Assembly (NCBI RefSeq): GCF_020010925.1
Contig: NZ_JAGJBZ010000001.1
Location: forward strand, 1,364,001 to 1,428,000
Direction of reading: 5' to 3'
Source of the DNA: Streptomyces griseiscabiei
GTDB taxonomy: Bacteria > Actinomycetota > Actinomycetes > Streptomycetales > Streptomycetaceae
DNA: 64,000 bases
The position numbers were made by a program, and so were the translations under genes. The notes below the pieces were generated by a model. That model searched no databases. It was not told the DNA's origin and was given only the letters and a program-made list of their open reading frames with translations. Positions 34,436 through 57,751 of this stretch are shown here, piece by piece (the first letter of the stretch is position 1; every line of letters begins with the position of its first letter).

Positions 34436-34463
34436 TGTCACAGATCAGCACGCCGCCTTGTCC
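34436..34463 (+). promoter_or_regulatory. ECF41-type promoter A
   Basis: TGTCACA, 17 nt, GTCC. It lies 59 nt before the start at 34522 and directly after azlD. It matches nine other sites in 34-58 kb. Confidence 0.7.
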
Positions 34464-34521
34464 CCTGCACAGGGAGCCCGCACGCACGCGGGACGAGAAC
34501 GCGGAAGGTGAAGTCCTCATC

Positions 34522-34815
34522 ATGAGCGCCGAGTCGACACCCCAGGAGCCCGATACCGTCCACCGACCCCGGCGCGAACCCCGCCCCCGGCGCCGCAGGA
34601 CGCTCGGCCTCGTCGGTGTCGCCCTGCTGGTCGTGGCCGTCCATCTCGGCGCGGGCGGACTCCTGTTGGCGTCGCCAGGTCCATGGAGGCACTGGGCCGC
34701 AGGAATCCTCCTGGTGGTGGCGGCGACCCACGCCGCCGGTGTCGTCCACCGCCGCACCGCCCACCGCAGGGCGACGACGAAACCCGTCGACCGTAGGGCC
34801 GTCGACGAGACGTAG
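34522..34815 (+). CDS. Small membrane protein, two helices, unknown function
   Basis: 97 residues: a basic Pro/Arg-rich cytoplasmic start (RPRREPRPRRRRTLG), two membrane segments (LVGVALLVVAVHLGAGGLLLA and WAAGILLVVAATHAAGVV) and a charged tail. No family recognised. A TGTCACA-N17-GTCC promoter points at it, so it may belong to the ECF41 regulon. AAGG is present before ATG 34522 but 10-13 nt away. Confidence 0.65.
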   Translation: MSAESTPQEPDTVHRPRREPRPRRRRTLGLVGVALLVVAVHLGAGGLLLASPGPWRHWAAGILLVVAATHAAGVVHRRTAHRRATTKPVDRRAVDET

Positions 34816-34828
34816 ACCACCCGCCTTG

Positions 34829-34851
34829 AATACGCATCTCCGATGCAACAT
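34829..34851. promoter_or_regulatory. NsrR-type box before nsrR
   Basis: 11-1-11 imperfect repeat beginning AATACGCATCTC with an inner perfect palindrome GCATC-TCC-GATGC, 15 nt before the nsrR start. Its first 12 nt are identical to the box before hmp. Confidence 0.75.
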
Positions 34852-34866
34852 TGATAGTCTGCCCGC

Positions 34867-35307
34867 GTGAGGCTGACCAGATACACGGATCTCGCGCTCC
34901 GGGCAGTGATGCGTCTGGCCGTCGTGGACGGCGAGGAGTTGCTGACGACGCGGCAGATCGCCGACTCGATGAACGTCCCCTACACGCACATGGCGAAGGC
35001 CATCGCGCAGTTGCAGCACCTCGGGGTGATCGAGGCGCGGCGGGGGCGCGGCGGCGGGCTGACGCTCACCGGCGCGGGCCGGAGCACGCCGGTGGGGGAT
35101 CTGGTCAGGACGCTGGAAGGGGACCGGGAGGCCGTGGTGTGCGAGGGTGACGCCCCGTGCCCCCTCTCGGGCGCCTGCCGGCTGCGGCGGGCCCTGCGGG
35201 AGGCGCAGGAGGCGTTCCACTCCTCGCTGAACGGGGTGACGGTCGCCGATCTGGTGAAGTCCCCGACGGGCCCCGTCCTGCTGGCGCTGGGCGCTCCCCC
35301 GGGCTGA
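34867..35307 (+). CDS. nsrR: NsrR, Rrf2-family iron-sulfur nitric-oxide sensor
   Basis: 146 residues: Rrf2 start MRLTRYTDLALRAVMRLAV, winged HTH (TTRQIADSMNVPYTHMAKAIAQLQHLGVIEARRGRGGG) and the cluster Cys in VCEGDAPCPLSGACRL, which hold a [4Fe-4S] cluster in Streptomyces NsrR. NO destroys the cluster and releases repression. It starts at GTG 34867 without Shine-Dalgarno and with a possible -10 (GATAGT) about 9 nt upstream, so it is probably leaderless. The hmp gene follows with a matching box. Confidence 0.93.
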   Translation: MRLTRYTDLALRAVMRLAVVDGEELLTTRQIADSMNVPYTHMAKAIAQLQHLGVIEARRGRGGGLTLTGAGRSTPVGDLVRTLEGDREAVVCEGDAPCPLSGACRLRRALREAQEAFHSSLNGVTVADLVKSPTGPVLLALGAPPG

Positions 35308-35378
35308 CCGCCCGGGCCTTTCCGTGGCACCCCTGACACCGCCCCCGCACGGCCGGGACCGTCACAGCCATGACCAAA

Positions 35379-35401
35379 AATACGCATCTCACATACCAAT
35401 T
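35379..35401. promoter_or_regulatory. NsrR-type box before hmp
   Basis: 11-1-11 element: AATACGCATCT, C, ACATACCAATT, 29 nt before the hmp ATG. It shares AATACGCATCTC exactly with the nsrR box, and its second half resembles the published hmpA site as I recall it. Confidence 0.8.
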
Positions 35402-35430
35402 CAATCGAACTCGATCCAGGAGTGTGTCCC

Positions 35431-36636: not shown

Positions 36637-36725
36637 GCGGCACGGGAACGGCGCGGGAACGGGGCGGAAGCGGGGCGGGTCAGGGACCCGGACAGCCCAT
36701 GAGACGCACGTCACACCCGGCTCCC

Positions 36726-36753
36726 TGTCACGGATCGCCCCGGCTGCCCGGTC
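36726..36753 (+). promoter_or_regulatory. ECF41-type promoter B (variant)
   Basis: TGTCACG, 18 nt, GTC: one base different in the -35 and one base longer than the other sites. It is 37 nt upstream of the AhpD-like gene. Confidence 0.5.
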
Positions 36754-36789: not shown

Positions 36790-37263
36790 GTGGAATCGCG
36801 TCTCAACTACTTCGGCCACCCTCTCGCGGGCAAGGTGCTGAAGCACATCAACTCGGCCGGCAAGGTGGTGTCGGACTCGACGCTGCCGGCCACCGTTCAG
36901 GAGCTGGTGAAGATCCGCGCGAGCCAGATCAACGGCTGTGGCTTCTGCACCGACATGCACACCAAGGACGCCGCCCACGCGGGAGAGACCCCGCAGCGCC
37001 TGCACCTGATCGCCGCCTGGCGCGAGGCCAAGGTCTTCACCGAGGCCGAGCGCGCCGCGCTCGAACTCACGGAGCAGGGCACCCGTATCGCCGACGCGGC
37101 CGGGGGCGTCACCGACGAGGCCTGGGCGAACGCCGCGAAGCACTACGACGAGGAGCAGCTGATCGCCCTGATCTCGCTCATCGCCGTCATCAACGCCTAC
37201 AACCGCATCAATGTCATCAACCAGCAGCCCGCCGGGGACTACCAGCCGGGCCAGTTCGGCTAG
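36790..37263 (+). CDS. Carboxymuconolactone decarboxylase/AhpD-like protein
   Basis: 157 residues. The AhpD-type redox motif is NGCGFCTDMHTKDA (CxxC plus His), followed by RLHLIAAWREAKVFTEAERAALELTE and the helix LIALISLIAVINAYNRINV. This is the peroxidase-like group regularly found as the target of ECF41 sigma factors. GTG 36790 is chosen because AAGGAG lies 6 nt before it. A near-consensus ECF41 promoter is upstream. Confidence 0.92.
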   Translation: MESRLNYFGHPLAGKVLKHINSAGKVVSDSTLPATVQELVKIRASQINGCGFCTDMHTKDAAHAGETPQRLHLIAAWREAKVFTEAERAALELTEQGTRIADAAGGVTDEAWANAAKHYDEEQLIALISLIAVINAYNRINVINQQPAGDYQPGQFG

Positions 37264-37381: not shown

Positions 37382-37409
37382 TGTCACAGATCGCGGGCCG
37401 GTCTGGTCG
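37382..37409 (+). promoter_or_regulatory. ECF41-type promoter C
   Basis: TGTCACA, 17 nt, GTCG; 33 nt before the flavoprotein start. Confidence 0.75.
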
Positions 37410-37442
37410 TAGTGGTGACAACACCGGCGATCGGAGTAGACC

Positions 37443-39173
37443 GTGGCACTCACCGAACAACGTCTTTCCACCATGGTGCTGGTGATCGGCACCGGAGGGG
37501 CCGGTCTGCGCGCGGCGATCGAACTGGCCGAGGCGGGCGTGGACGTCCTCGCGGTCGGCAAGCGGGCCAAGGAGGACGCGCACACGGCCCTCGCCGCCGG
37601 AGGGATCAACGCGGCGCTGGCCACCATGGACCCCGAGGACAGCTGGCAGCAGCACGCGGCGGACACCCTCAAGGAGAGCTATCTGCTCGCCGATCCCCGT
37701 ACCGCCGAGATCGTCACCCGGGGCGCCGCCCGGGGCATCGACGACCTGGAGCGCTTCGGCATGGCGTTCGCGCGGGAGGAGGACGGCCGGATCTCCCAGC
37801 GGTTCTTCGGCGCGCACACGTTCCGGCGCACCGCCTTCGCGGGCGACTACACCGGCCTGGAGATCCAGCGGACGCTGATCAGGCGTGCGGAGCAGCTGAA
37901 GGTCCCCGTCCTCGACGGGGTGTACATCACGCGCCTCCTGACCCACGACGGGGCCGTCTTCGGCGCCTACGGCTTCGACCTGGCGAGCGGGACGCGGTAT
38001 CTGATCCACGCCGACGCCGTGATCCTCGCGGCCGGCGGGCACACCCGGATCTGGCGGCGTACGTCCTCGCGACGCGACGAGAACACCGGCGACTCCTTCC
38101 GGCTGGCCGTGGACGCCGGGGCCCGGCTGCGCGACCCGGAGCTGGTGCAGTTCCACCCGTCCGGGATCATCGAGCCGGAGAACGCGGCCGGGACCCTGGT
38201 CAGCGAGGCCGCCCGGGGCGAGGGCGGCATCCTGCGCAACGCGCTCGGGGAACGCTTCATGGCCCGCTACGACCCCGAGCGGATGGAGCTGTCCACCCGC
38301 GACCGCGTGGCGCTGGCCTCCTACACGGAGATCAAGGAGGGGCGCGGCACCCCCAAGGGCGGGGTGTGGCTCGACGTGTCCCATCTGCCCCGGCAGACGA
38401 TCATGACGCGGCTGCCCCGCGTGTACCAGACACTGCTGGACCTGCAGATGCTGGACATCACCCGGGAACCGATCGAGATCGCGCCCACCGCGCACTACTC
38501 GATGGGCGGGGTGTGGGTGCGCCCCGAGGACCACAGCACCGACGTACGCGGGCTGTACGCCATCGGGGAGGCGTCGAGCGGACTGCACGGCGCCAACCGG
38601 CTCGGCGGGAACAGTCTCATCGAGCTGCTGGTCTTCGGCCGGATCACCGGCCGGGCGGCCGCCGCCTACTCCGAGTCCCTCACCGCCCACCCACGCTCGG
38701 CGGCCGCCGTCGCGCGGGCCCGGGCGGAGGTCGACGAACTGCTCACGGCCGACGGGCCGGAGAACGTCCGTGCCCTGCAGCGGGCCATCCGCGACACGAT
38801 GACCGAGCACGCGGGCGTCGTACGCGACGAGGAGGGCCTGCGGGCGGGGCTGGCGGAACTCTCCGTGATCGAGAAGCGGATGGAGGACGTCGGGGTCCAC
38901 CCGGACATCGCCGGCTATCAGGACCTCGCCCACGCCTTCGACCTCAAGTCCGCCGCGCTGGCGGCGCGGGCCACGCTCGAAGCGGCCCTGGAGCGCCGTG
39001 AGACCCGCGGCTGCCACAACCGCAGCGACCATCCCGACCTGGATCCCGCAATGCGGGTGAATCTCGTGTGGTCACCGACGACCGGTATCACCCGCGAGAG
39101 CATTCCGGAGATCCCGGACGAGATTTCCGCGCTGATGCAGGAGGTCACGACAGAGGGCAAGCTCGTCGAATGA
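37443..39173 (+). CDS. Orphan succinate dehydrogenase/fumarate reductase-like flavoprotein
   Basis: 576 residues of the SdhA/FrdA/L-aspartate-oxidase group. FAD site: VLVIGTGGAGLRAAIELAEAG. Also seen are LAAGGINAAL, the active-site regions VQFHPSGI and STRDRVALA, and APTAHYSMGGVWV with GANRLGGNSLIELLVFGR near the end of the FAD domain; a C-terminal helical domain follows. No iron-sulfur or membrane-anchor genes adjoin it, so it may act alone or with subunits encoded elsewhere. GTG 37443 follows GGAG. An ECF41-type promoter points at it. Confidence 0.9.
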   Translation: MALTEQRLSTMVLVIGTGGAGLRAAIELAEAGVDVLAVGKRAKEDAHTALAAGGINAALATMDPEDSWQQHAADTLKESYLLADPRTAEIVTRGAARGIDDLERFGMAFAREEDGRISQRFFGAHTFRRTAFAGDYTGLEIQRTLIRRAEQLKVPVLDGVYITRLLTHDGAVFGAYGFDLASGTRYLIHADAVILAAGGHTRIWRRTSSRRDENTGDSFRLAVDAGARLRDPELVQFHPSGIIEPENAAGTLVSEAARGEGGILRNALGERFMARYDPERMELSTRDRVALASYTEIKEGRGTPKGGVWLDVSHLPRQTIMTRLPRVYQTLLDLQMLDITREPIEIAPTAHYSMGGVWVRPEDHSTDVRGLYAIGEASSGLHGANRLGGNSLIELLVFGRITGRAAAAYSESLTAHPRSAAAVARARAEVDELLTADGPENVRALQRAIRDTMTEHAGVVRDEEGLRAGLAELSVIEKRMEDVGVHPDIAGYQDLAHAFDLKSAALAARATLEAALERRETRGCHNRSDHPDLDPAMRVNLVWSPTTGITRESIPEIPDEISALMQEVTTEGKLVE

Positions 39174-39202: not shown

Positions 39203-39230
39203 TGTCACAAGTCGCGCCCCTGTCTTGTCT
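39203..39230 (+). promoter_or_regulatory. ECF41-type promoter D
   Basis: TGTCACA, 17 nt, GTCT; 39 nt before the NmrA-like gene start. Confidence 0.75.
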
Positions 39231-39269: not shown

Positions 39270-40016
39270 ATGAAGGTCGTAGTGATCGGTGGAACCGGTC
39301 TCATCGGTTCGAAGCTCGTCGGCAAGCTCGGCGAGCACGGGCACGAGGCCGTCGCCGCCGCGCCCAACACCGGCGTCAACACCCTGACGGGCGAGGGCCT
39401 CGCCGAGGTCCTGGAGGGCGCGGCGGTCGTGGTCGACGTGTCGAACTCGCCCTCCTTCGCGGACGACGCCGCCATGGACTTCTTCCGCACCTCCACGACC
39501 AACCTCCTCAAGGCCGAGTCCGAGGCCGGTGTGCGGCACCATGTGGCGCTCTCCGTGGTCGGCACCGACCGCCTCCAGGAGAGCGGCTACTTCCGTGCCA
39601 AGCAGGCCCAGGAGGAGCTGATCCAGTCGTCCGGGATTCCGTACTCGATCGTCCACGCCACCCAGTTCTTCGAGTTCATGAAGGGGATCGCGGACATGTC
39701 GACCGAGGGCGACACGGTGCGGCTGGCCCCCGTGAAGATCCAGCCGATCCTCTCCGACGACGTGGCCGCCGCCGTCGGCCGCACCGCGGTCGGCTCCCCG
39801 GTCGACGGTGTGGTCGAGATCGCGGGCCCCGACGTCTTCCGGCTCGACGAGCTGATCCGTGAGGGGCTCGCCGCCAAGGGCGACCCCCGCAAGGTCGTCA
39901 CCGACCCGAAGGCGCCCTACTCCGGCGCCCAGGTGCAGGAGGACACGCTCGTCCCGGGCCCGGGCGCGCACATCGCCGAGACCCGGTTCGCCGACTGGCT
40001 CGCGCGGCAGAAGTAG
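39270..40016 (+). CDS. NmrA-type atypical SDR (NAD(P)-binding epimerase-like protein)
   Basis: 248 residues. NAD(P) motif GGTGLIG at 7-13; conserved VVDVSNSPSF, HHVALSVVGTDRLQESGYFRAKQAQEELI and IVHATQFFEFM. This is the epimerase-like family regularly associated with ECF41 factors. ATG 39270 follows GAAAGGA at a good distance. A TGTCACA-type promoter lies upstream and a terminator-like hairpin downstream. Confidence 0.92.
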   Translation: MKVVVIGGTGLIGSKLVGKLGEHGHEAVAAAPNTGVNTLTGEGLAEVLEGAAVVVDVSNSPSFADDAAMDFFRTSTTNLLKAESEAGVRHHVALSVVGTDRLQESGYFRAKQAQEELIQSSGIPYSIVHATQFFEFMKGIADMSTEGDTVRLAPVKIQPILSDDVAAAVGRTAVGSPVDGVVEIAGPDVFRLDELIREGLAAKGDPRKVVTDPKAPYSGAQVQEDTLVPGPGAHIAETRFADWLARQK

Positions 40017-40095: not shown

Positions 40096-40683
40096 ATGTC
40101 CAATCGCACGGAAACCGTGATATCCGATTCCGCTCGCCATCACGATCTGACGGGCACCTACGCCATCGATCCGGACCACAGCACCATAGGGTTCTCCGTC
40201 CGCCACGCCATGATCAGCAACGTCCGGGGGAAATTCACCGCTTTCGAGGGACTGCTGAAACTCGACGGGGAACGGCCGGCCCGGTCCGAGGCCCATGTCA
40301 GTGTCCAGACCGGCAGTCTCGACACGGGCATCGCCCAGCGGGACGCCCATGTCACCGGTGCGGACTTCCTGGACTCGGCGACCTTCCCCCTCATGACCTT
40401 CCGCTCCACCGGGATCGCCGAGGACGGGGAGGGCCGGTTCCGGATGGCCGGCCTTCTGCGGATCAAGGACGTCGAACTGCCCCTCGACATCGACCTCGAG
40501 TTCGGCGGCGCGGGCCAGGACGCCGGCGGGCTGAACCGGGTCGGCTTCGAGGGCACGGCCACCCTGCGGCGCTCCGACTGGGGCATCGACTGGAACTCCG
40601 CGCTGGCCACGGGCGGAGTGCTGGTCGGCGACAAGGTGAAGCTGGTCCTCGACATCTCCGCCGTGGAGCTGGACCCCCGGTGA
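40096..40683 (+). CDS. YceI-family protein
   Basis: 195 residues with the YceI lipocalin-like pattern: LTGTYAIDPDHSTIGFSVRHAMISNVRGKF, SEAHVSVQTGSLDTGIAQRDAHV, DFLDSATFPLMTFRST and RSDWGIDWN. No signal peptide, so probably cytoplasmic, binding an isoprenoid-type lipid as YceI proteins do. AAGGGA precedes ATG 40096. Isoprenoid quinone binding would fit the respiratory neighbours, but that is speculation. Confidence 0.92.
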   Translation: MSNRTETVISDSARHHDLTGTYAIDPDHSTIGFSVRHAMISNVRGKFTAFEGLLKLDGERPARSEAHVSVQTGSLDTGIAQRDAHVTGADFLDSATFPLMTFRSTGIAEDGEGRFRMAGLLRIKDVELPLDIDLEFGGAGQDAGGLNRVGFEGTATLRRSDWGIDWNSALATGGVLVGDKVKLVLDISAVELDPR

Positions 40684-44738: not shown

Positions 44739-45698
44739 TCAGGGACTCGGGTGGTCCGTGGCCGGTCGTAGGTGGTCGTCGGCCGCGGGTGCGGCGAGAT
44801 GGGTGCGGACGATACCGATCACGGTGTCGGTGGTGCGGTCGAGGTACGTGCGGCCGTCGGGCAGCCGGGTGTCCGGGCTGATGTAGCTGCGCGGGCCGAG
44901 ATGGGTGGCCGGGTCGAGCCGGTGCACGGTGATCCGGCCCGCGCGGCGGGCGCGGTTCCAGCCGCTGCGGCGGAACAGGGGCATGCGCTGCGGGAAGATC
45001 CAGGTGCCGACCCGCTCGATCCGGTCGTTCGCGCTGGTCAGCTGGTGCAGGTGCACGGCGTGGGTGAGGTCGTTGGCACCGTTGTGGAACCCGCCGAGGG
45101 TGATGACGACGAGCGGTGCGCGCAGCCGGGTGTGGAGTTCGTCGATCGCGCCGGTGGCGACCTGCGCGCCCCCGCTGTAGCTCAGCAGCACCACGGGGAT
45201 GCCGCTGTCGGGCGGATACCCGGCGAGCCGGAGCTGGGTGGCGATCTGGGAGCCGACGGCCCGGTTGTAGAGCGGGCGGTAGCGGTGGTCGGCGGCGACG
45301 AAGACCTGCATGACGTTGTGCAGGAACAGCAGCAGACCGGCGTGCCTGCGCAGCCACGCCCACACGGGCCGGTCGGCGAGCGGGTCGGCCAGCGGCGAGT
45401 ACGGCTGCACCTGCCCCAGCACCCGCAGCTCCGGCGCCCCGGCGAGCACGGCCTTGACCAGCTGACCACCGTCCCGGGTGTCCCGGAAGCGCCGCTTGCC
45501 GATGCCGTCCAGATAGACCAGGTACGCGGCCGGAGGTCTGTCGGGGGCGGCGCCCCGGGCGTAGGGGACGCCGTCGGGGAGTTCGGTGACGGGGTCGCGC
45601 CAGCCCGCGCTGTAGGCGAGCACCTCGTAGCGGGCGAGCAGGCCCTCGGCGATCAGGACCGGTCCCAGCGCGCAGATCCAGAGCACGAGGTCGTTCAT
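44739..45698 (-). CDS. Alpha/beta-hydrolase-like protein, N-terminal membrane anchor
   Basis: 319 residues. It begins with a hydrophobic segment (LVLWICALGPVLIAEGLLARY) that may anchor it. A nucleophile-elbow-like LLSYSGGAQVATGA (SYSGG) and VVITLGGFHNGANDLTHAVHLHQLTS follow, the latter offering a possible Asp/His. A lipase or esterase role is likely but not certain. ATG 45698 overlaps the stop of the upstream membrane-protein gene (ATGA). Last gene of the patatin-glycosyltransferase operon. Confidence 0.75.
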   Translation of the reverse strand: MNDLVLWICALGPVLIAEGLLARYEVLAYSAGWRDPVTELPDGVPYARGAAPDRPPAAYLVYLDGIGKRRFRDTRDGGQLVKAVLAGAPELRVLGQVQPYSPLADPLADRPVWAWLRRHAGLLLFLHNVMQVFVAADHRYRPLYNRAVGSQIATQLRLAGYPPDSGIPVVLLSYSGGAQVATGAIDELHTRLRAPLVVITLGGFHNGANDLTHAVHLHQLTSANDRIERVGTWIFPQRMPLFRRSGWNRARRAGRITVHRLDPATHLGPRSYISPDTRLPDGRTYLDRTTDTVIGIVRTHLAAPAADDHLRPATDHPSP

Positions 45699-46183
45699 AC
45701 GGTCACCTCCGGCGTCCGGGTCGCGCTGACCCGTACGACCAGCCGGCGTACGGCCTCCACGGTGACGCCGAGGCCGGTCCCGGCGACGGCGACGCATCCG
45801 GCGGCGGTCCACCAACCGAGCCCGGACGCCGTCGCCAGCGCGCCCGCGAGCCCGGCGCCGACGCCCACGAAGAGGACCATGTGCAGCAGGGGCCCGAGCA
45901 GCGGGAACGCGAGGACGGCGGAGAGCAGCAGCGGGACGAGCAGGCTCGGCGTCCACGACAGTCCGCTCTCCGGCGGCGGGGCGGACCCGAGCAGTTCGGC
46001 GAGGGTCCAGGCGGTCAGCGGCCACAGCGCGAGGACGGCGCCCTCGACGAGACCGGCGGCCACCAGCAGCCCGGCCACGAAGGTCCGCGACATGCCGGGG
46101 CGGCGCGACACCAGGGGCACGATGCGCCCGGCGGCCTCCGAGAGCCCGGCGAACACCAGCAGCAGGACGACGGCGGTGGTCAT
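45695..46183 (-). CDS. Integral membrane protein, unknown function
   Basis: 162 residues, mostly hydrophobic, with four or five segments (AVVLLLVFAGLSEAAG, FVAGLLVAAGLVEGAVLALW, LLVPLLLSAVLAFPLLGPLLHMVLFVGVGAGL, AAGCVAVAGTGLGVTV). No motif recognised. It sits between the glycosyltransferase (3-nt gap) and the hydrolase (4-nt overlap), so it works with them. Confidence 0.75.
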   Translation of the reverse strand: MTTAVVLLLVFAGLSEAAGRIVPLVSRRPGMSRTFVAGLLVAAGLVEGAVLALWPLTAWTLAELLGSAPPPESGLSWTPSLLVPLLLSAVLAFPLLGPLLHMVLFVGVGAGLAGALATASGLGWWTAAGCVAVAGTGLGVTVEAVRRLVVRVSATRTPEVTV

Positions 46184-46186
46184 CGC

Positions 46187-47410: not shown

Positions 47411-48561
47411 AGCCCTGCCTCCACGGTCGGGGTAGAAGTCGATCTCGATGTCGGTGCCGGTGCCGATGTCGGTGCCGATGTCGGTGCCGATGTCCCGCCC
47501 GGGCGGGAGGGTGCGGTCGGAACGGCCGGGGCGGGGGAAGCGGCACCAGCGCCGGGCGGGGCCGGGGCGGGTCCGGCGGGTCCGGCGGGAGAGCCCTGCG
47601 TGACTCGGCCGGCGGACGGGCCCGGACCGGCGGCGGCACGCCGACCGGCGGACGCGCGCCGACCGGGACCGGTGGGCCTTCCCCGGTCGGCCGGGGCTGT
47701 CGTGATGTTGTCGACCCGGTACAGGCCGGGTCCGTTGACGCGCAGTTCGTCGAGGAAGCGGCCCGCCGTGCGGGCGGCGGTGCCGATCAGCCGCTGGGTG
47801 TGGCCGAAGTCCCAGGGGGCGGGCCAGGTCTCGATGCCGGTGGGCAGTACGACGGTCGGGATGTGCCGGGACACCTCGTGCAGATCGCGCTCGATCTGGT
47901 GGCGCAACAGCAGCAGCCCGGCCCGGGAGGCGATCGCGCCGGCCCGCGCACGCGGTTCGACGGGGCGCAGCGGCGAGCTCTCCGGGCCGGTCGACAGGAC
48001 GACCACACTGGCCGCGCCCGCCTGCAGCGCGGCCAGCACCGGCACATAGGCGACCACCCCGCCGTCGACCAGCGTCCGGCCGTCGCGGGCCACCGGCGGC
48101 AGCACCCCGGGGATGGCGGCACTCGCCAGCAGCGCCGACTCCAGGTCGCCGCGGTCGAGCGCCACCGGGGCGCCGGTGACCAGGTCCATCGCCACGGCGG
48201 TGAACGGAATGGCCAACTCCTCGATCCGTGACGGCAGTTCGGCCCGCGCGATCAGCCGGCGCAGGCCGCGGTCGGTGAAGAGGCTGGTCCGGGAGGACAG
48301 ATAGCCGAGCGGATACACCTCACGGCGGCGCAGCCGGGTCCACACATGGTCCAGCCAGGGCGCGGCCCGGTCGGGATGGGCGGCGGCGATGGCCCCGTTG
48401 AGGGCTCCCACCGAGGTACCGATGATCATGTCCGGGGTGAACGCGCGCTGTTCCAGCGCGTACCCGACGCCCACATGGGCCGCGCCGAGCACGCCACCGG
48501 CACCCACCACCGCGGCCACGGGGCGGGGCAGGGCCCGCAGGCCCACCGAGGAGTCGCTCAT
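47407..48561 (-). CDS. Patatin-like phospholipase with Pro/Ala/Thr-rich tail
   Basis: 384 residues. The catalytic dyad is readable: oxyanion loop GAGGVLGAAHVG, nucleophile GTSVG and Asp in LVDGGVVAYVPV. After about residue 290 the protein becomes a low-complexity Pro/Ala/Gly/Thr tail with APTS repeats, encoded by 12-bp DNA repeats. It would release fatty acids from phospholipids. It lies 15 nt after the small gene and overlaps the glycosyltransferase start, inside one operon. Confidence 0.92.
   Translation of the reverse strand: MSDSSVGLRALPRPVAAVVGAGGVLGAAHVGVGYALEQRAFTPDMIIGTSVGALNGAIAAAHPDRAAPWLDHVWTRLRRREVYPLGYLSSRTSLFTDRGLRRLIARAELPSRIEELAIPFTAVAMDLVTGAPVALDRGDLESALLASAAIPGVLPPVARDGRTLVDGGVVAYVPVLAALQAGAASVVVLSTGPESSPLRPVEPRARAGAIASRAGLLLLRHQIERDLHEVSRHIPTVVLPTGIETWPAPWDFGHTQRLIGTAARTAGRFLDELRVNGPGLYRVDNITTAPADRGRPTGPGRRASAGRRAAAGPGPSAGRVTQGSPAGPAGPAPAPPGAGAASPAPAVPTAPSRPGGTSAPTSAPTSAPAPTSRSTSTPTVEAGL
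47445..47494. repeat. 12-bp tandem repeats in the patatin tail
   Basis: GATGTCGGTGCC repeated three times plus partial units. In the patatin frame it codes APTS repeats. Copy number may vary by slippage. Confidence 0.8.
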
Positions 48562-48576: not shown

Positions 48577-48792
48577 TCAGTCGCCGTGAGGTACCTGAGA
48601 CACGTGAGGTACCTGAGCCAGGGGCCGTCCTAGGGACCGTCTGCGGACTCCCGGTGGCTCCGGGCGCAAGGTGATCCACCGTTCGTCGAGGAACTTCCGG
48701 GCACCCTCCGGACCCGGCCCGTACAGGAAGGGCGGCACGGGCGCCGTGTCCGCCGGTTCCTGAGCCGCGGTCTCAAGAACGTGCTTCGTCAT
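48577..48792 (-). CDS. Short protein resembling the N-terminus of an alpha/beta-hydrolase
   Basis: 71 residues starting MTKHVLETAAQEPADTAPV, then PPFLYGPGPEGARKFLDE. This resembles the lead-in of fold-3 alpha/beta-hydrolases (pattern PPFL..LGPEGAR..LD), but no catalytic part follows, and the second half (RPEPPGVRRRSLGRPLAQV) is unrelated. It is either a truncated gene or a short product in its own right. AGGAG lies 7 nt before ATG 48792. It is the first gene behind an ECF41-type promoter and heads the patatin operon. Confidence 0.6.
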   Translation of the reverse strand: MTKHVLETAAQEPADTAPVPPFLYGPGPEGARKFLDERWITLRPEPPGVRRRSLGRPLAQVPHVSQVPHGD

Positions 48793-48838: not shown

Positions 48839-48866
48839 TGACCGGACACCCGCCGAAGGTGTGACA
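48839..48866 (-). promoter_or_regulatory. ECF41-type promoter E
   Basis: On the minus strand: TGTCACA, 17 nt, GTCA; 46 nt before the start at 48792. It would drive the five-gene lipid/glycosyltransferase operon. Confidence 0.75.
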
Positions 48867-49038: not shown

Positions 49039-49755
49039 GTGGACACCCATCTGGCCCGAGCCGGGCATGACCGCACGCGAGCCGTGACGACGGCCGAGGT
49101 GACGACCAAGGCGACGACCGAGGCGACGATCGGTGAGCCGGACCCGGCGGTGTCGGTGTTCGTGCTGGCCAGACCAGGACTGCTCAGGATCGCCCGGCGG
49201 ATCCTGGGGGACGCGAACGACGCCGAGGACGTCATCCAGGAGGCATGGCTGCGCTGGCAGGGCACCGACCGCGCGCTCGTCGTGAATCCGACGGCACTGC
49301 TGCGCACGACGACCGTCCGGCTCGCGATCAATGTCGTCCAGTCGGCCCGGCGGCGCCGGGAGTCCTGCGCCAGCCCCTGGCTCCCGGAGTTCACGGACGG
49401 CCACGCGACCCCGGAGGCCCTGGCCGAGCGGCGGGACGCCGCCGAGCGGGCGGTCCTGCTGCTGATGGAGACGCTGACGCCGAGGCAGCGGGCGGTCTAT
49501 GTCCTGCGCGAGGGCTTCGGCTGCTCCTACGGCCGGATCGCCGAGCTCCTGTGTCTCACCGTCGCCAACACCAGACAGCAGGTCGTTCGAGCCCAGCGGC
49601 GTCTCGCGGCGGGCGGTCGCGGGCAGCCGGTGGACTCCGTCGCGCACCGGCGGCTGGTCGAGGCGTTCCTCACGGCAGCTCACTCCGGTGACCTGGACCG
49701 TCTGGAGCGGGTTCTGTGTGCGGACGCCGGCTGTACTCCTGCTCGGTCGGCTTGA
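49039..49755 (+). CDS. ECF41-like sigma factor lacking the C-terminal regulatory domain
   Basis: 238 residues. Region 2 reads LLRIARRILGDANDAEDVIQEAWLRWQ; region 4 reads LTPRQRAVYVLREGFGCSYGRIAELLCLTVANTRQQVVRAQRR. The linker has the ECF41-like WLPEF. Only the first helix of the SnoaL-like domain remains (HRRLVEAFLTAAHSGDLDRLERVL) before an unrelated end and a stop, so both ECF41 control motifs (DGGG and NPDKL) are gone. GTG 49039 has GAGGAG 7 nt upstream. The last 86 nt overlap the 3' end of the cytochrome b gene on the other strand. Confidence 0.87.
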   Translation: MDTHLARAGHDRTRAVTTAEVTTKATTEATIGEPDPAVSVFVLARPGLLRIARRILGDANDAEDVIQEAWLRWQGTDRALVVNPTALLRTTTVRLAINVVQSARRRRESCASPWLPEFTDGHATPEALAERRDAAERAVLLLMETLTPRQRAVYVLREGFGCSYGRIAELLCLTVANTRQQVVRAQRRLAAGGRGQPVDSVAHRRLVEAFLTAAHSGDLDRLERVLCADAGCTPARSA

Positions 49756-51430
49756 TGATCTGGGCGCCCTCGCCGTAGAGGGCTCGGCTGAGCCGGGCCC
49801 GCAGGCGCTCTGTGGGACGGGGTGCGGCGTCCGGGCCGCCGCCGTTCACGGACGGGCGGGCGTCGATCGGTGTGTACTGCTCGTGCCGGGTGAGCCTGTG
49901 CAGTTCCGCCCGGCCGAGCGGCTCGTGCACCTCGACGTACTCACCGTGCGGCAGGCGTTTGACGATTCCGGTCTCCCGGCCGTGCAGCACCTTGTCCCGG
50001 TCCCGGCGTTGCAGCCCGAGCGCCCACCGCTTCGTCACGGCGTAGACCGCGACGGGTACGACGAACAAGCCGACGCGCACCGCCCACGTCACCGCGTTGA
50101 CCGAGACATGAAAGCGGATGGCGATGATGTCGTTCGCCGCGCCGACCAGGGACACCGCGTAGAAGCTGAGCCATGCGACGCCGAGCGCCGTGCGCACCGG
50201 GCGGTTGCGCGGGCGGTCCAGGAGGTGTTGCTCCCGGTCGTCGCCGGTCACCCACGCCTCGACGAACGGGTAGGCGGCCAGGGCGAGGAAGAAGCCGACG
50301 CCGGCCAGCAGCGGGACGAGATTGTCCAGGGCGAGGGTGTGGCCCCCGAACGCGATCTCCCAACCGGGCATGACCCGCAGCAGTCCGTCGGCGATGCCCA
50401 TGTACCAGTCCGGCTGCGAGCCGGCCGAGACCTGGTCGGCGCGGTAGGGGCCGTAGAGCCACACGGGATTGATCTGCGCGACGGCGGCCATGACGAAGAC
50501 GACACCGGAGACCAGGAAGAGGAGTCCGGCGGATTTCACGGCCTTCACCTTGAACGGCAGACCCGTGCCACTCCCACCGCCCCTGCCACCCACGCCACTC
50601 CTGCCGATCCGCTCCGGGCCCGGATGCCGGGTGTGCCGGTGGCGCAGGACGAGCAGCAGATGGAGAACGATCAGCGCCACCATCAGGGCCGGAATGAGCA
50701 GGACATGGATCGCGTGGAAACGCGCCACCAGGTCATGACCCGGGAATTCGCCGCCGAAGAGGAACATCGAGAGATAGGTGCCGACGATCGGGACGGAGAG
50801 AATCGTCCCGTTCACCACCGCCAGTCCGGTTCCGGAGAGCAGATCGTCCGGCAGGTCGTATCCCGTCAGGCCACCGAACATGCCGAGGACCAACAGCGAG
50901 AATCCGAACAGCCAGTTGAGTTCGCGGGGCTTGCGGAAGGCTCCCGTGAAGAACACCCGCATCATGTGGGCGAGCGCGGCGGCGACGAAGACCAGCGCCG
51001 CCCAGTGGTGGGCCTGGCGGATCAGCAGACCGCCCCGGACCTCGAACGAGATGCGCATCGTCGAATCGAAGGCCGCCGACACCGGCTGCCCCCGCAGCGG
51101 CGCGTAGCTGCCCCGGTATTCCACCGTCTCCATCGAGGGGTGGAAGTAGAACGTCAGGAACGCCCCCGTGATGACGATGACGACGAAGCTGTAGAGACAT
51201 ATCTCCCCCAGCAGGAAGGACCAGTGGTCCGGGAAGGCCCGCCGGGTTCTCTCCTTGGCCGACCGGTGGACCCCACCCAGGCGTCCGTCGGCCCACGCGG
51301 CGAACCTTTCACCCCTTCCGCCCTTTCCTCCTTCTCCCCCTCCTCCGCCCTCTCCGCCTTTTCCTCTCTCTCCGCCTTCTCCGCCTTCTCCGTCTTTCCG
51401 CGCTTCCTCTTCGACCGGCCCGTCATCCAT
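49670..51430 (-). CDS. Cytochrome b subunit, QcrB-like, orphan copy with low-complexity N-terminus
   Basis: 586 residues resembling QcrB of the actinobacterial bc1 complex. The haem His pairs are seen in RQAHHWAALVF / LAHMMRVF and ARFHAIHV / VLHLLLV; other core parts are LNWLFGFSLLVLGMFGGLTGYDLP and SQPDWYMGIADGLLRVMP. The first 40 residues are a Glu/Gly/Lys repeat (GEGGEGGERGKGG) encoded by a pyrimidine tract. No qcrA or qcrC adjoins it. It starts 8 nt inside the WhiB gene end, so both are one operon under an ECF41-type promoter. It may replace or modify the normal bc1 subunit. Confidence 0.92.
   Translation of the reverse strand: MDDGPVEEEARKDGEGGEGGERGKGGEGGGGGEGGKGGRGERFAAWADGRLGGVHRSAKERTRRAFPDHWSFLLGEICLYSFVVIVITGAFLTFYFHPSMETVEYRGSYAPLRGQPVSAAFDSTMRISFEVRGGLLIRQAHHWAALVFVAAALAHMMRVFFTGAFRKPRELNWLFGFSLLVLGMFGGLTGYDLPDDLLSGTGLAVVNGTILSVPIVGTYLSMFLFGGEFPGHDLVARFHAIHVLLIPALMVALIVLHLLLVLRHRHTRHPGPERIGRSGVGGRGGGSGTGLPFKVKAVKSAGLLFLVSGVVFVMAAVAQINPVWLYGPYRADQVSAGSQPDWYMGIADGLLRVMPGWEIAFGGHTLALDNLVPLLAGVGFFLALAAYPFVEAWVTGDDREQHLLDRPRNRPVRTALGVAWLSFYAVSLVGAANDIIAIRFHVSVNAVTWAVRVGLFVVPVAVYAVTKRWALGLQRRDRDKVLHGRETGIVKRLPHGEYVEVHEPLGRAELHRLTRHEQYTPIDARPSVNGGGPDAAPRPTERLRARLSRALYGEGAQIIKPTEQEYSRRPHTEPAPDGPGHRSELP
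51312..51415. repeat. Pyrimidine-rich low-complexity tract in the cytochrome b gene
   Basis: About 100 bases almost only C and T on the plus strand (repeated TCCGCCTTC-like units). It encodes the acidic/basic Gly repeat of the cytochrome b N-terminus. Such tracts slip and can form triplex structures. Confidence 0.75.
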
Positions 51431-51716
51431 GTCCCCGCCGCCGTTCGTGAACCGTTCCGAGAGGCACGCGGCGTGTCAGCGCGCGGCGTTCGCTCTCCGT
51501 CGTGCCGCCCCAGACGCCTTCCACCCCGCCCGCCCGCAGGGCCCAGTCGAGGCAGCGCCGCGCGACGGGGCAGTGGCCGCAGACCGCCTTGGCCTCGTCG
51601 ACCTGGACGAGCGTCGGACCGCTCACGCCGATGGGGAAGAAGAGATCGGGATCGACGCGCAGGCAGGCCGCCCGTTCGCGCCAGTGCAGGGCTTGGTCTC
51701 CGTGTTCTGCAGCCAT
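51423..51716 (-). CDS. WhiB-family (Wbl) iron-sulfur protein
   Basis: 97 residues. The four cluster Cys are at AACL (about 18), then AVCGHC and RRCLDW, followed by the family turn GVEGVWGGTTESERR and a basic tail. Wbl proteins bind [4Fe-4S] clusters, sense oxygen or NO, and act with sigma factors. ATG 51716 has GGAGGTTCGC upstream. The gene overlaps the cytochrome b start and lies behind an ECF41-type promoter. Confidence 0.93.
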   Translation of the reverse strand: MAAEHGDQALHWRERAACLRVDPDLFFPIGVSGPTLVQVDEAKAVCGHCPVARRCLDWALRAGGVEGVWGGTTESERRALTRRVPLGTVHERRRGHG

Positions 51717-51749: not shown

Positions 51750-51777
51750 AGACCGGGCAGCCGGCGCGGGTGTGACA
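51750..51777 (-). promoter_or_regulatory. ECF41-type promoter F
   Basis: Minus strand: TGTCACA, 17 nt, GTCT; 33 nt before the whiB start. It is divergent from promoter G, whose motif begins 55 nt away. Confidence 0.78.
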
Positions 51778-51831: not shown

Positions 51832-51859
51832 TGTCACAGGCTCCGGGTGTGCCTGGTCC
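51832..51859 (+). promoter_or_regulatory. ECF41-type promoter G
   Basis: TGTCACA, 17 nt, GTCC; 25 nt before the ATG at 51885. Confidence 0.75.
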
Positions 51860-51884: not shown

Positions 51885-52025
51885 ATGGATCACGCCGAGG
51901 CGGTGCCGATCACGGAGCTGGTCGAGAGCGTCGGTATCCGCTGGATGCCGCCGACCGACGCGGTTGGCCAACACGGTTGGGACAGTGTGGCCTCTATACA
52001 CACCGCGTATACACAGTGTGTATAG
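51885..52025 (+). CDS. Short ORF (46 codons) behind ECF41 promoter
   Basis: A short reading beginning MDHAEAVPITELVESVGIRW with AGGAAGGA upstream and a promoter in the right place. It ends with a TAG that is the last 3 nt of the operator palindrome before the FtsX gene. The second half (HGWDSVASIHTAYTQCV) is partly operator sequence. It may be a remnant of a longer gene or a leader ORF for the permease. No family recognised. Confidence 0.45.
   Translation: MDHAEAVPITELVESVGIRWMPPTDAVGQHGWDSVASIHTAYTQCV
51994..52025. promoter_or_regulatory. Long palindromic operator before the FtsX-type permease
   Basis: CTATACACAC, 12 nt, GTGTGTATAG: perfect 10-bp arms. A second repeat, TATACACA-G-TGTGTATA, overlaps it. 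Three TATACAC half-sites are thus packed into 32 bp ending 8 nt before the ATG. The style fits GntR/YtrA or PadR regulators, none of which is encoded nearby. Confidence 0.75.
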
Positions 52026-54478: not shown

Positions 54479-54506
54479 TGTCACAAAAGCTCTTTCCGCT
54501 CGGTCC
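54479..54506 (+). promoter_or_regulatory. ECF41-type promoter H (sigma gene autoregulation)
   Basis: TGTCACA, 17 nt, GTCC; 27 nt before the GTG start of the ECF41 sigma gene. Confidence 0.8.
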
Positions 54507-54533: not shown

Positions 54534-55493
54534 GTGACTTTCAGCGAGGACCGGGGGCCGACGGTTCCCGGGCCGTCCCCCACGACGGCAGATCTCGACG
54601 ACGCGTTGTCCGTCTTCGTCCGGCACCGCAGGCGTCTGTTCGGCATCGCCTACCGCGTCCTCGGCAGTGTGGTCGAGGCCGAGGACGTGGTCCAGGAGGT
54701 GTGGCTGCGCTGGCAGCGGACCGACCGCTCCGTGGTGATCAGCCCCGTCGCCTTCCTCTCCAGCACGACGACCCGGCTGGCCATCAATGTCGCGCAGTCC
54801 GCGCGGGTGCGCCGGGAGACCTACATCGGGCCGTGGCTGCCCGAGCCCGTCGACACCGGCTCCGACCCGGAGTTGGGCGCCCAGCGCGCGGAGGCCCTCG
54901 AGATGGCCGTGCTGCTGGTGCTGGAGAGACTCAACCCCACGGAACGCGCCGCCTATGTACTGCGTGAGGCGTTCGACTACGCCTATCCGGAGATCGCCGA
55001 GATCCTGCGCCTCAGCCTGGTCAACGTACGGAAGATCGTCAGCCGTGCGCGCAGACATCTGTCGCAGGGGCGGCGCGCGAGCGTGGACACGGCCGAACAC
55101 CGCCGTCTGCTCAGTGTGTTTGTCGCGGCGGCGCGGACCGGGGACGTGGCGTCGCTGGAGGCCCTGCTCACCCCAGACACCGTCAGCCTGTCCGACGGCA
55201 ACGGTATGCGGGGGTGCGCCCGCATCGCCGTACGGGGCCGGGCGCGGGTGGCCAGGATGGTGACCTACACCAGACTCTGGCGGGACGCGGAGCCACGGTT
55301 CGTCGACGCCAACGGCGGTACGGGCGTGCTGATCAGCCGGGCCGGGGCACCCGTCGCGTTCCTGACGCTCGCCGCGTCGGCCGAGGGCGTCCACCAGCTG
55401 ATGTGGGTGTTCAGCCCGGACAAGATCGCCGCGTTCCTCGGTTCCGGTACCCGCTCCTCGGGCCCCCACCATGTGTCCGACGGCTGCCTATGA
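54534..55493 (+). CDS. ECF41-family sigma factor with C-terminal SnoaL-like domain
   Basis: 319 residues. Region 2: RLFGIAYRVLGSVVEAEDVVQEVWLRWQ; WLPEP linker; region 4: LNPTERAAYVLREAFDYAYPEIAEILRLSLVNVRKIVSRARRHL. The C-terminal SnoaL-like domain carries a variant DGNG (family DGGG) and SPDKI (family NPDKL). GTG 54534 follows GGGGAG. A TGTCACA-N17-GTCC promoter immediately upstream implies it drives itself, and it is the best candidate driver of promoters A-J. A winged-helix protein is encoded directly after it. Confidence 0.92.
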   Translation: MTFSEDRGPTVPGPSPTTADLDDALSVFVRHRRRLFGIAYRVLGSVVEAEDVVQEVWLRWQRTDRSVVISPVAFLSSTTTRLAINVAQSARVRRETYIGPWLPEPVDTGSDPELGAQRAEALEMAVLLVLERLNPTERAAYVLREAFDYAYPEIAEILRLSLVNVRKIVSRARRHLSQGRRASVDTAEHRRLLSVFVAAARTGDVASLEALLTPDTVSLSDGNGMRGCARIAVRGRARVARMVTYTRLWRDAEPRFVDANGGTGVLISRAGAPVAFLTLAASAEGVHQLMWVFSPDKIAAFLGSGTRSSGPHHVSDGCL

Positions 55494-55949
55494 TTGGGGG
55501 GAGTCGCGGATCTCGGCTCGGTGCAGCGGGCCCTCGGCGTCCTCCAGCCCCTCCTGCTCGACCACCCGGCCCCGGCCGCCGCACCGCGGACCGACCACAC
55601 GACCGCCGACCACACGACCACCGAGCCCGCGTCAACGCCCGCGCCAGCGCCAGCGCCCGCGGACGACGACATCGACACCGGCCCCAGCGGCGGGGCGGGC
55701 ACCGGCACCGACGACACCGGGACCGCCGCCCAGGGGCAGAAGTCGTACGGCAGGCTCACCGAGCAGATCATGGAGTACTTCGCGGGTGTCGGCGACGCCG
55801 AGGTCCGGGCCCGTGATGTCGCCGCGGCTCTGGGCCGTGACACCGACAGCGGCAGCATCAACGGGGTGCGCAGCACCCTCGACCGGCTGGTCGGCACCGC
55901 GCGGGTGCGACGGGCCGGCCGGGGTCTGTACCGCGCCGGGCGTCCGTGA
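55494..55949 (+). CDS. Winged-helix protein with Pro/Ala/Thr linker, after the sigma gene
   Basis: About 151 residues if started at TTG 55494 directly after the sigma stop; GTG 55521 is an alternative. The N-terminal half has a helix and a Pro/Ala/Thr/Asp-rich linker. The C-terminal half (YGRLTEQIMEYFAGVGDAEVRARDVAAALG then INGVRSTLDRLVGTARVRRAGRGLYR) is a clear winged helix. The tight spacing suggests coupling to the sigma factor. It may modify the sigma output; no known family assigned. Confidence 0.7.
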   Translation: MGGVADLGSVQRALGVLQPLLLDHPAPAAAPRTDHTTADHTTTEPASTPAPAPAPADDDIDTGPSGGAGTGTDDTGTAAQGQKSYGRLTEQIMEYFAGVGDAEVRARDVAAALGRDTDSGSINGVRSTLDRLVGTARVRRAGRGLYRAGRP

Positions 55950-55961
55950 CCGCACACGGTG

Positions 55962-56303
55962 TCAGTGCACCGACGCCACGATCACCACGCACAGTCCGGC
56001 CATGGCGACGGTGATCAGCGTCATGGCGATCATGGTGCCCCTCAGCCAGCGCCCGAGACGGACGCGGTGCTGTGCGTGCGCCGCGGCGACGCTGTCGGTG
56101 ATGTGGTCCGTCACCATCCGGGCCACATAGGTCTGTTCGTCGAGGTACCAGCGCTCGATGTCGTTCCTCTGCTCCGGTGTCAGACCGGGTTCCCGGGCGA
56201 CGAAGGCCGCCACCCGCTGCTGGGCCGCGTGCAGATGACCCTCCCGGTAGAGCAGTGCCTCGATGTCGGTCAGGCCGCGCGCGGCCTCTTCACTCGCGTC
56301 CAT
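55962..56303 (-). CDS. Tail-anchored membrane protein, unknown function
   Basis: 113 residues: a helical soluble part (LTDIEALLYREGHLHAAQQRVAAF, PEQRNDIERWYLDEQTYVARMVTDHITDSV) and one C-terminal membrane segment (GTMIAMTLITVAMAGLCVVIVA). It overlaps the NADH dehydrogenase gene end by 14 nt and is read from the same promoters. It may anchor or assist that enzyme; this is inference from position. Confidence 0.75.
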   Translation of the reverse strand: MDASEEAARGLTDIEALLYREGHLHAAQQRVAAFVAREPGLTPEQRNDIERWYLDEQTYVARMVTDHITDSVAAAHAQHRVRLGRWLRGTMIAMTLITVAMAGLCVVIVASVH

Positions 56304-57642
56304 GGCGGGCTCCTGAGACGGGGGCGGTGCGCGGACCGGCGCTCGTGACGAAGGCGTCCCGCGGGTGCTGGACGGAGGCGAGGGAGACGAGGTCCCGGCC
56401 GAACAGGGCCGCGGTGAGCCAGACGGTGAGCACCCGGATCTTGCGCTCCCAGGTGGGCACGGCCAGGACGTGGTAGCCGCGGTGCATCAGCCAGGCCGGG
56501 AAGCCCTTGACGACCAGGTTCCGGTACTGGAAGATGCCGCGCCCCAGCCCGAGTGTCGCGACCACCCCCAGGCTGCCGTGGCGGTAGTCGCGGAGCTCGC
56601 GCCCGCGCAGCCCGGCGACGATGTTCTTGGCGAGGCGCCTGCCCTGGCGTACGGCGTGCTGGGCGTTCGGCACCGTCCGTGCCCCGGGGATCGGCAGCGC
56701 CAGGTCGGGGACGGCCGCGTCGTCCCCGGCCGCCCAGGCGTCGGCCACCGGCTCGCTCGCGGTGCCCACACGGAGGTCGGGCCGGACCACCAGCAGGCCC
56801 CGCTCGTCCACCGGGAGGTCCGTGTGGTTGTGCACGACCGGGTTGGAGGCGTTGCCGGCGGTCCAGACGATCAGTTCGGAGTCGAACTCCTCTCCGGTGG
56901 AGAGCACGACGTGTCCGTCCACGGCGGAGACGAGCTGGGTGCCGAGGTGCACCCGCGCGCCCCGGCGTTCCAGGGAGCGGACCACCCACGCCCCCGGTCC
57001 GTCGCCCACCTCGGGCAGGATGCGGTCCCGGGCCTCGACCAGATGGAACGACAGGTCCTGCGGGCCGAGTTCGGGGTAGTACCTGAGCATCGCGGTCGCC
57101 AGCGACAGCAGTTCACCGAAGCCCTCGACCCCGGAGAACCCGCCGCCGACGAAGGTGACGGTGAGCAGCTTCCGCCGGGCGGCGCCGGGCGGCAGGGACG
57201 CCGCCTGGTCGAACGCGGTCAGCAGCCGGTCGCGGATGGCGACGGCCTCCTCCACGTGCTTCAGACCGATGGCCCGCTCCGCGACCCCGGGGACGGAGAA
57301 GGTGCGGGTCACGGCGCCGGCGGTGACGACGAGGATGTCGTAGCGCAGTTCGTGGTCGTCTCCGTCCGCCGGGCGGACCGTGACCGTCCGGTCCCGGTGC
57401 CGGATCTCCGTCACGCTTCCCGCGACCAGCCGGGTCCTTCGCAGATGACGGCGCAGCGACACGGCGGCGTGGCGGGCCTCGACCGAACCGGCCGTGACCT
57501 CCGGCAGGAAGGGCTGGTACGTCATGTACGGGCGCGGGTCGACGACCGTCACCCTGGCCTCGTCCGGCCGCAGCGACTTCTCCAGGCCCCACGCGGTGTA
57601 GAAGCCCGCGTAGCCACCGCCGACGATCAGGATCTCGCGCAT
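56290..57642 (-). CDS. ndh: Type II NADH dehydrogenase (NDH-2)
   Basis: 450 residues. FAD-binding start EILIVGGGYAGFYTAWGLEK; NADH site TVTFVGGGFSGVEGFGEL; second FAD contact AWAAGDDAAVPD; C-terminal part with GRELRDYRHGSLGVVATLG and FQYRNLVVKGFPAWLMHRGYH typical of membrane-bound NDH-2. It passes electrons from NADH to quinone without pumping protons. ATG 57642 has GAGGG upstream. Two ECF41-type promoters lie in tandem before it. Confidence 0.93.
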   Translation of the reverse strand: MREILIVGGGYAGFYTAWGLEKSLRPDEARVTVVDPRPYMTYQPFLPEVTAGSVEARHAAVSLRRHLRRTRLVAGSVTEIRHRDRTVTVRPADGDDHELRYDILVVTAGAVTRTFSVPGVAERAIGLKHVEEAVAIRDRLLTAFDQAASLPPGAARRKLLTVTFVGGGFSGVEGFGELLSLATAMLRYYPELGPQDLSFHLVEARDRILPEVGDGPGAWVVRSLERRGARVHLGTQLVSAVDGHVVLSTGEEFDSELIVWTAGNASNPVVHNHTDLPVDERGLLVVRPDLRVGTASEPVADAWAAGDDAAVPDLALPIPGARTVPNAQHAVRQGRRLAKNIVAGLRGRELRDYRHGSLGVVATLGLGRGIFQYRNLVVKGFPAWLMHRGYHVLAVPTWERKIRVLTVWLTAALFGRDLVSLASVQHPRDAFVTSAGPRTAPVSGARHGRE

Positions 57643-57672
57643 GATTCCCTCTGCTTCTCGTCCCGTTCAGCT

Positions 57673-57700
57673 GGACAGGTCGGTGTGTGACGGTGTGACA
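57673..57700 (-). promoter_or_regulatory. ECF41-type promoter I
   Basis: Minus strand: TGTCACA, 17 nt, GTCC; 30 nt before the ndh start. Confidence 0.78.
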
Positions 57701-57723
57701 ACGGTGTTTCTGTCTCGCTCCTA

Positions 57724-57751
57724 AGACCGTTCCGGCGGCGCGGATGTGACA
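57724..57751 (-). promoter_or_regulatory. ECF41-type promoter J (tandem)
   Basis: Minus strand: TGTCACA, 17 nt, GTCT; 51 bp upstream of promoter I, both directed at ndh. Confidence 0.75.

Follow-up and report, generated by a model that had tools for sequence, protein, structure and literature searches.

The window analysed here is a 64,000-nucleotide stretch of the Streptomyces griseiscabiei genome (contig NZ_JAGJBZ010000001.1, positions 1,364,001 to 1,428,000) that contains, within 23.3 kb, nine exact copies of the sequence TGTCACA-N17-GTC and one variant, TGTCACG-N17-GTC, as an initial annotation of the sequence had reported. These sites resemble promoters of the ECF41 family of extracytoplasmic function (ECF) sigma factors, and two ECF41-type sigma genes, here called sigma A and sigma B, lie among them (Table 1). 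The -10 element, which in the window is T or G followed by GTC, is 26-82 nt from the likely start codon at the ten sites. Dinucleotide shuffles of the sequence (n=100) contain a mean of 0.29 exact sites and a maximum of two; none of the 100 reaches nine.

The genome-wide scan that had been proposed bears out the clustering: TGTCACA-N16-18-GTC occurs 29 times in the 10.6 Mb genome, and the form with a 17-nt spacer (N17) 16 times, nine in the window and seven outside it. With the density of those seven as background, the probability of nine sites in 23.3 kb is approximately 1e-22. The first 34 kb of the window hold no exact N17 match, as had been stated, and the lone other TGTCACA (16109) lacks GTC at 17 nt. 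Three of the seven sites outside the window belong to classical ECF41 loci: a divergent CGTC pair that separates an ECF41 gene from one of 130 aa, and a TGTC site upstream of an oxidoreductase-like gene whose next neighbour is an ECF41 gene. For the remaining four sites, no ECF41 gene is among the called genes in the 3 kb read around each.

The gene classes expected of ECF41 targets are present, joined by respiratory and redox genes, and the sigma A gene itself has an exact site, all in agreement with the initial annotation, which recognized sigma A correctly but missed sigma B. The sites do face gene starts, but two of them (48866 and 51832) front only remnant open reading frames (ORFs). One resembles the N-terminus of an alpha/beta-hydrolase, and it is through this remnant alone that the supposed lipid operon, from the patatin gene onwards, is reached; patatin, glycosyltransferase and hypothetical genes possibly form a read-through operon from site 48866. 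The other remnant belongs to type C, an ECF41-like protein of relatives that survives in the window just as a short piece; in two relatives (G079 and G068) a site at the place of the 51832 site fronts type C itself. The likeness of both remnants to relatives was compared by eye. The YceI gene is probably an operon member with the NmrA-like gene.

Table 1. Promoter-like sites and genes of the cluster (window coordinates; CMD, carboxymuconolactone decarboxylase; FAD, flavin adenine dinucleotide)
Feature	Position	Strand	Remarks
Promoter, -10 TGTC	34436..34462	+	TGTCACA-N17-GTC, exact; 59 nt upstream of small membrane-type ORF
97-aa ORF, likely membrane protein	34522..34815	+	First ORF downstream of site 34436
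Variant promoter	36726..36752	+	TGTCACG-N17-GTC; upstream of CMD gene
CMD (AhpD-like) gene	36790..37263	+	Pfam PF02627 8e-21; GTG start at 36790 chosen by comparison with relatives
FrdA-like flavoprotein gene promoter	37382..37408	+	Exact; GTG 37443 is 34 nt on
FrdA/SdhA/TfrA-like FAD protein	37443..39173	+	576 aa
NmrA-like gene promoter	39203..39229	+	Exact
NmrA/NAD(P)-binding (epimerase-like) protein	39270..40016	+	PF13460
YceI protein	40096..40683	+	PF04264; directly 3' of NmrA
Patatin, glycosyltransferase, two hypothetical genes	44739..48561	-	
71-aa remnant, alpha/beta-hydrolase N-terminus-like	48577..48792	-	Hydrolase has 316 aa in relatives
Promoter upstream of hydrolase remnant	48840..48866	-	Exact, intact
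Sigma B (type B), second ECF41-type sigma	49039..49755	+	238 aa; Pfam regions 2 and 4
QcrB-like cytochrome b, after WhiB	49670..51430	-	586 aa; NF050120 691 bits, cut-off 500
WhiB-like protein	51423..51716	-	PF02467 4.5e-24
WhiB-cytochrome b promoter	51751..51777	-	Exact
Promoter upstream of type C remnant	51832..51858	+	Exact, intact
46-aa ORF, type C remnant	51885..52025	+	Only first 12 residues match type C N-terminus of relatives
Sigma A promoter	54479..54505	+	Exact; predicted autoregulation
Sigma A, ECF41-like	54534..55493	+	319 aa; sigma2-sigma4-SnoaL/NTF2 fold
Small membrane-type protein beside NDH-2	55962-56303	-	
NDH-2-like oxidoreductase	56290-57642	-	PF07992 2e-35
NDH-2 proximal promoter	57674..57700	-	Exact
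NDH-2 distal promoter	57725..57751	-	Exact

The motif recurs in relatives. A core of 42 regions was assembled from the window, the sigma-chosen G regions, the named loci L111-L118 and regions added for their motif counts (G105, a second G084 contig, L124, L138, L158, L177 and extensions of large clusters). The core contains 281 exact sites at spacing 17, a total that is enriched by choice because of those additions; the other spacings, counted in the same regions, yield 7, 0, 1, 3, 1, 3, 1 and 6 sites at 13, 14, 15, 16, 18, 19, 20 and 21 nt, respectively. The first base of the -10 element is G at 228 core sites, T at 49, A at four and C at none; less related loci of the clade have G at 31 and T at 17, and classical-like loci have C at six and T at five, so the -10 element of the clade is unlike that of classical ECF41. 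Information is carried by TGTCACA, by C-(G/T)-G-T-C at -10 and weakly by T/A after it, and the spacer is nearly free. A called start lies within -15 to 250 nt of 244 of the 281 sites, of 107 sites when flipped (many of the promoters are divergent, which is why flipped sites often meet starts) and of 11% of random positions. The richest region, in one relative, has 22 sites over 66 kb. Chance repeats are ruled out as a source of the sites by the shuffle, spacing and orientation controls.

Genomes that match the window sigma at E≤1e-70 count as sigma-positive; there are 30 among 121 Streptomyces genomes, the window's own included, and sigma regions were taken from 26 of the other 29 (G001, G102 and G112 were left out). 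Many of the 26 regions share the same dispersed architecture, and several have 0-2 sites within 20-40 kb. The pattern TGTCACA-N16-GGTC averages 8.3 occurrences per genome in the 30 sigma-positive genomes (range 0 to 24) versus 1.5 in the 91 others (p 6e-11), and its reversed-pattern control averages 0.9 versus 0.5. In Streptomyces sp. NBC_01450 a linear replicon of 2.35 Mb carries the island, six sites being close to the sigma gene. Streptomyces hokutonensis (locus L112) is among the relatives whose island is intact. G068 has a second island (G068:C1, 7.94-7.96 Mb, L210) with five further sites. The two sigma-negative genomes with the highest counts (G105 and G075) were inspected along with four others; G075, with seven GGTC-type hits, was rejected as a candidate, a tandem repeat contributing 4 of its 12 N17 hits.

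Single-linkage clustering of proteins over the core regions, with ten representatives named by Pfam, produced 23 families with sites in two or more regions. The largest contributions come from NmrA-like genes (site before 37 of 50, in 27 regions), ECF41-type genes, sigmas and type C pooled (33 of 97, 24 regions), and a mixed family that includes the FrdA-like FAD proteins (26 of 60, 24 regions). Sites also precede, among others, genes for CMD (12 of 19, exact sites in 12 regions), two cupins (13 of 19 and 5 of 10), NDH-2 (12 of 16), ferredoxin reductase (10 of 13), ferredoxin (9 of 9), WhiB (9 of 13), cytochrome b (6 of 15), alpha/beta-hydrolase (8 of 13, 8 regions), a small coiled ORF (8 of 9), methyltransferase (6 of 11), OsmC (5 of 10 and 3 of 13), YceI (4 of 11) and patatin (3 of 7, 3 regions). 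The FrdA-like gene occurs in 20 of the 121 genomes, 18 of them sigma-positive, and has an exact site in 18 of the 20. In G070 it has one -35 mismatch. In G050, which is 82% complete and sigma-negative, the -35 element is TGTGACA (L211, G050:C865, ~4700-4793), possibly through promoter decay after loss of the sigma, a single case in an incomplete genome.

ECF41-like proteins were typed A, A2, T, B or C by best match to five reference proteins, and a FastTree phylogeny of 167 of them (106 A/A2/T/B, 29 canonical, 32 type C) separates A/A2/T/B from canonical plus type C with two label changes. Sigma A has sigma region 2 (PF04542, 2e-11) and region 4 (PF08281, 1e-12), both of which are also present in type B. 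The linker YIGPWLPEP is invariant in 11 type A proteins, and WLPEP is found in 22 of 24 core type A proteins. When residues 191 to 300 of the AlphaFold model of sigma A are divided into eleven 10-residue blocks, ten have predicted local distance difference test (pLDDT) scores of 86-97 and one scores 74; judged by this model, sigma A carries a C-terminal SnoaL/NTF2 extension like that of ECF41 (~100 aa), for which the match to Pfam SnoaL_2 (E 0.003) is below the Pfam cut-off. Neither strict DGGGK nor strict NPDKL is present in any of the 24 core type A proteins (the window protein has DGNGM and SPDKI), and 15 of the 18 sigma/type C pairs listed retain a PxK(I/L) ending that is related. The attribution of the motif to ECF41 is correct for the -35 element TGTCACA and the spacing but not for the -10 element, which is not CGTC, and the nine exact sites of the window depart from the single adjacent COE (CMD, oxidoreductase or epimerase) target of ECF41. 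The best curated hidden Markov models for sigma A score just short of their cut-offs (TIGR02957 SigX4, 314 bits, cut-off 323; PRK09636 SigJ, 251, cut-off 271).

Sigma B differs in its C-terminus. Its regulatory domain stops 49 aa after region 4, so that a full SnoaL extension is absent; its linker reads WLPEF, and strict WLPEP is found in one of seven type B proteins. The extension is cut 42-76 residues after region 4 in 20 of the 106 A/A2/T/B proteins (one of them, from G011, in a doubtful 401-aa frame), with at least five state changes on the tree, and in none of the 29 canonical or 32 type C proteins. Activity rose ~20-fold when Ecf41Bli was cut at 204 and ~120-fold when Ecf41Rsp was cut at 206, and removal of the whole extension abolished it (Wecke 2012, PMC3426412). 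The natural cuts all keep at least 42 residues, which fits these truncations, and their positions are presumed equivalent to those in Ecf41Bli and Ecf41Rsp. By analogy, the natural truncation of sigma B, apparently new, may resemble the hyperactive alleles made in the laboratory.

Type C shows the reverse motif pattern: WLPEP is in none of 29 core type C proteins, NPDKL in 28 and DGGGK in 25. NPDKL contacts the WLPEP linker in ECF41 (PMC7730460). Eighteen of 26 type A/T genes have type C within 400 bp with no called gene between, and the motif pattern is reciprocal in 17 of these 18 sigma/type C pairs; of the other eight, four (including the window) lack a type C protein of at least 180 aa in the region read and four have it farther off. 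Type C is present in 16 of the 121 genomes, all 16 sigma-positive, and in two of 296 genomes of a class-wide sample, both Streptomyces; the window's own genome has no close type C elsewhere, the best match being 39%. A third ECF41-like protein of the window (21991-22962, minus strand), placed with the type C group on the tree, has 39% identity to type C. In the AlphaFold model of a type C protein the NTF2-like domain is predicted with confidence and the arrangement of the domains only weakly (pTM, the predicted template modelling score, 0.56 from 20 sequences, in an alignment that mixes type C with canonical and A/A2 rows), compared with 0.78 from 44 sequences for sigma A, a gap that alignment depth may explain. 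A putative type C partner of this kind, without WLPEP and with DGGGK and NPDKL, would also be new.

It is possible, though rather doubtful, that these proteins result from a split of ECF41, in which sigma A keeps the sigma half and WLPEP while type C, now without the linker and with an altered DNA-reading helix, retains the sensing domain and its DGGGK and NPDKL motifs and regulates in trans by docking of NPDKL onto WLPEP. The truncated paralogues would then be signal-independent drivers, and the window genome a case in which the regulator was lost naturally. The 39 A2 proteins outside the core also rarely have strict NPDKL (5) or DGGGK (2), only three non-core proteins are typed C, at 34-41% identity, and sigma A retains a folded SnoaL domain, mostly with the PxK(I/L) ending; all of this weighs against a split. 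So does the ratio of nonsynonymous to synonymous polymorphism (pN/pS), a rough guide here since synonymous sites are probably near saturation: it is ~0.54, ~0.56 and ~0.51 for sigma2, sigma4 and SnoaL of type C, even values that point to no special constraint on its sensing half, and 0.15, 0.27 and 0.38 for the same domains of sigma A. The motifs of A2, the SnoaL fold of sigma A and the even constraint on type C are the reasons for the low standing of the split.

Taken together, the cluster is very probably a conserved multi-operon regulon of a divergent ECF41 clade, read by a sigma factor that the island itself encodes. The promoter reading is supported by the fixed spacing, the starts that are faced, the recurrence at orthologous genes and the count that follows the sigma. 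The regulon is multi-operon, as first described, but it is an island rather than dispersed, and partly decayed in the window genome. In the proposed mechanism, most transcription units of an accessory island would carry a TGTCACA-N15-C(G/T)GTC(T/A) promoter, to be read by RNA polymerase with a divergent ECF41-type sigma of the island. Because the sigma A gene bears such a promoter, sigma A would amplify itself. From work on ECF41, the SnoaL/NTF2 domain may restrain the sigma A core until a small molecule binds, and sigma B, without most of that domain, may be active without a signal, as the published truncated alleles are. The output would be a redox or respiratory remodelling through NDH-2, cytochrome b, the FrdA-like flavoprotein, CMD, NmrA, YceI and WhiB. 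The motif, its spacing and placement, its recurrence, its co-occurrence with the sigma and the protein families are observed; we infer that the island sigmas read the sites, as well as the signal, the activity of sigma B and the physiological role.

Several observations weigh against this conclusion. Six of the 30 sigma-positive genomes hold merely 0-2 GGTC-type sites, so the sigma need not bring a large regulon; sigma-negative G105 has a true cluster of eight sites, and the one ECF41-type gene called within 40 kb of it is short and lies farther away. Some core regions were picked after their motif counts were known, 37 of the 281 core sites lack a called start within 250 nt, and flipped sites have one at the frequency given above. 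A cluster may contain up to five or six ECF41-type genes, with at least two sigmas in the window, so that a given promoter cannot be assigned to one driver.

Reading of the sites by another ECF41 paralogue of the genome is improbable: six further paralogues match at 38-44% identity and TGTCACA is the common -35 element of ECF41, but the classical loci of the genome show CGTC or TGTC beside their own sigma, the number of GGTC-type sites tracks the island sigma across the 121 genomes, and the sigma A gene bears a site. It is still harder to credit that the motif serves a repressor or activator as its operator. At two window sites GTGACA follows TGTCAC after 26 nt as an inverted repeat, and GTGA is common at about the same place before FrdA-like genes of relatives; yet the repeat is at just two of nine window sites, GTGA seems part of the start region, the motif is asymmetric, fixed in spacing and facing starts, and its -35 element is the mapped ECF41 promoter element (PMC3426412). 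Somewhat less remote, though unlikely, is a real but dying system, the island no longer responding in the window genome owing to truncation of one target and of the type C partner. The remnants at 51885 and 48577 lie under intact promoters and close type C is absent elsewhere in the genome, but sigma A, sigma B and seven target genes are full-length, nine exact promoters persist, and a changed -35 element was seen in one genome without a detected sigma, unlike the window.

Other genes lie among those of the probable regulon. An Rrf2/NsrR-like regulator and a flavohaemoglobin (34867-36636), which lack an exact site, are flanked by target genes; in G070 a TGTCACG-N17-GTC variant is upstream of the flavohaemoglobin. 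An FtsX permease gene (52034-54391) sits between the type C remnant and sigma A, and just upstream of it a palindrome-like sequence, CTATACACACCGCGTATACACAGTGTGTATAG, noted by eye (51994-52025), looks like the operator of another regulator. A 142-aa protein (55521-55949), without a Pfam match, recurs in the islands of several relatives, its C-terminal part 84-86% identical in two of them. A 922-aa protein labelled by judgement as LuxR-type (41892-44660, minus strand) has relatives that adjoin many of these islands.

Within a single island this clade seems to govern as many as about twenty promoters, and ECF41 function may therefore be readable from a whole gene set, here quinone-linked respiration, ferredoxin, and peroxide- and electrophile-type enzymes. 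Through the type C partner a self-contained sigma switch could become a two-protein switch, a route that can be tested, and the GGTC -10 element could yield an orthogonal promoter set.

According to Wecke 2012 (PMC3426412), ECF41 generally drives a single gene or operon, a conclusion based partly on genome-wide footprinting and one that makes a multi-operon ECF41 regulon unusual, as had been claimed; the same study gives no inducing condition for ECF41. RpoE10 of Azospirillum controls motility and lateral flagella according to a title cited in PMC8999054, so ECF41 may have wider effects elsewhere. In the accessible literature on ECF41, SigJ and Streptomyces regulons, neither a clustered multi-operon ECF41 regulon nor a sigma-like partner was recognised, though related remarks elsewhere are possible; a study of Streptomyces sigma regulons by RIViT-seq (PMC9205884) shares the feature of multiple targets and names ECF41 once, in a reference title. 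The best solved relative of the window sigma is Mycobacterium tuberculosis SigJ (PDB 5xe7, 2e-42), a likeness by sequence. With Ecf41Bli and Ecf41Rsp (PMC3426412) the island shares sigma2-sigma4, the WLPEP linker, the C-terminal extension, the -35 TGTCACA, CMD, oxidoreductase and epimerase-like targets and a site often before the sigma gene too. It differs from them in having many targets rather than one, GGTC/TGTC rather than CGTC at -10 (TGTT is also given for B. licheniformis in Wecke 2012), changed DGGGK and NPDKL motifs, and several paralogues per locus, some naturally truncated. The ECF56 system SigG1-RsfG of Streptomyces tsukubaensis (PMC7730460) likewise pairs a SnoaL-bearing ECF sigma factor that has several targets with a regulator encoded beside it; RsfG, at ~17 kDa, is an anti-sigma protein, whereas type C is ECF41-like over its whole length, SnoaL domain included.

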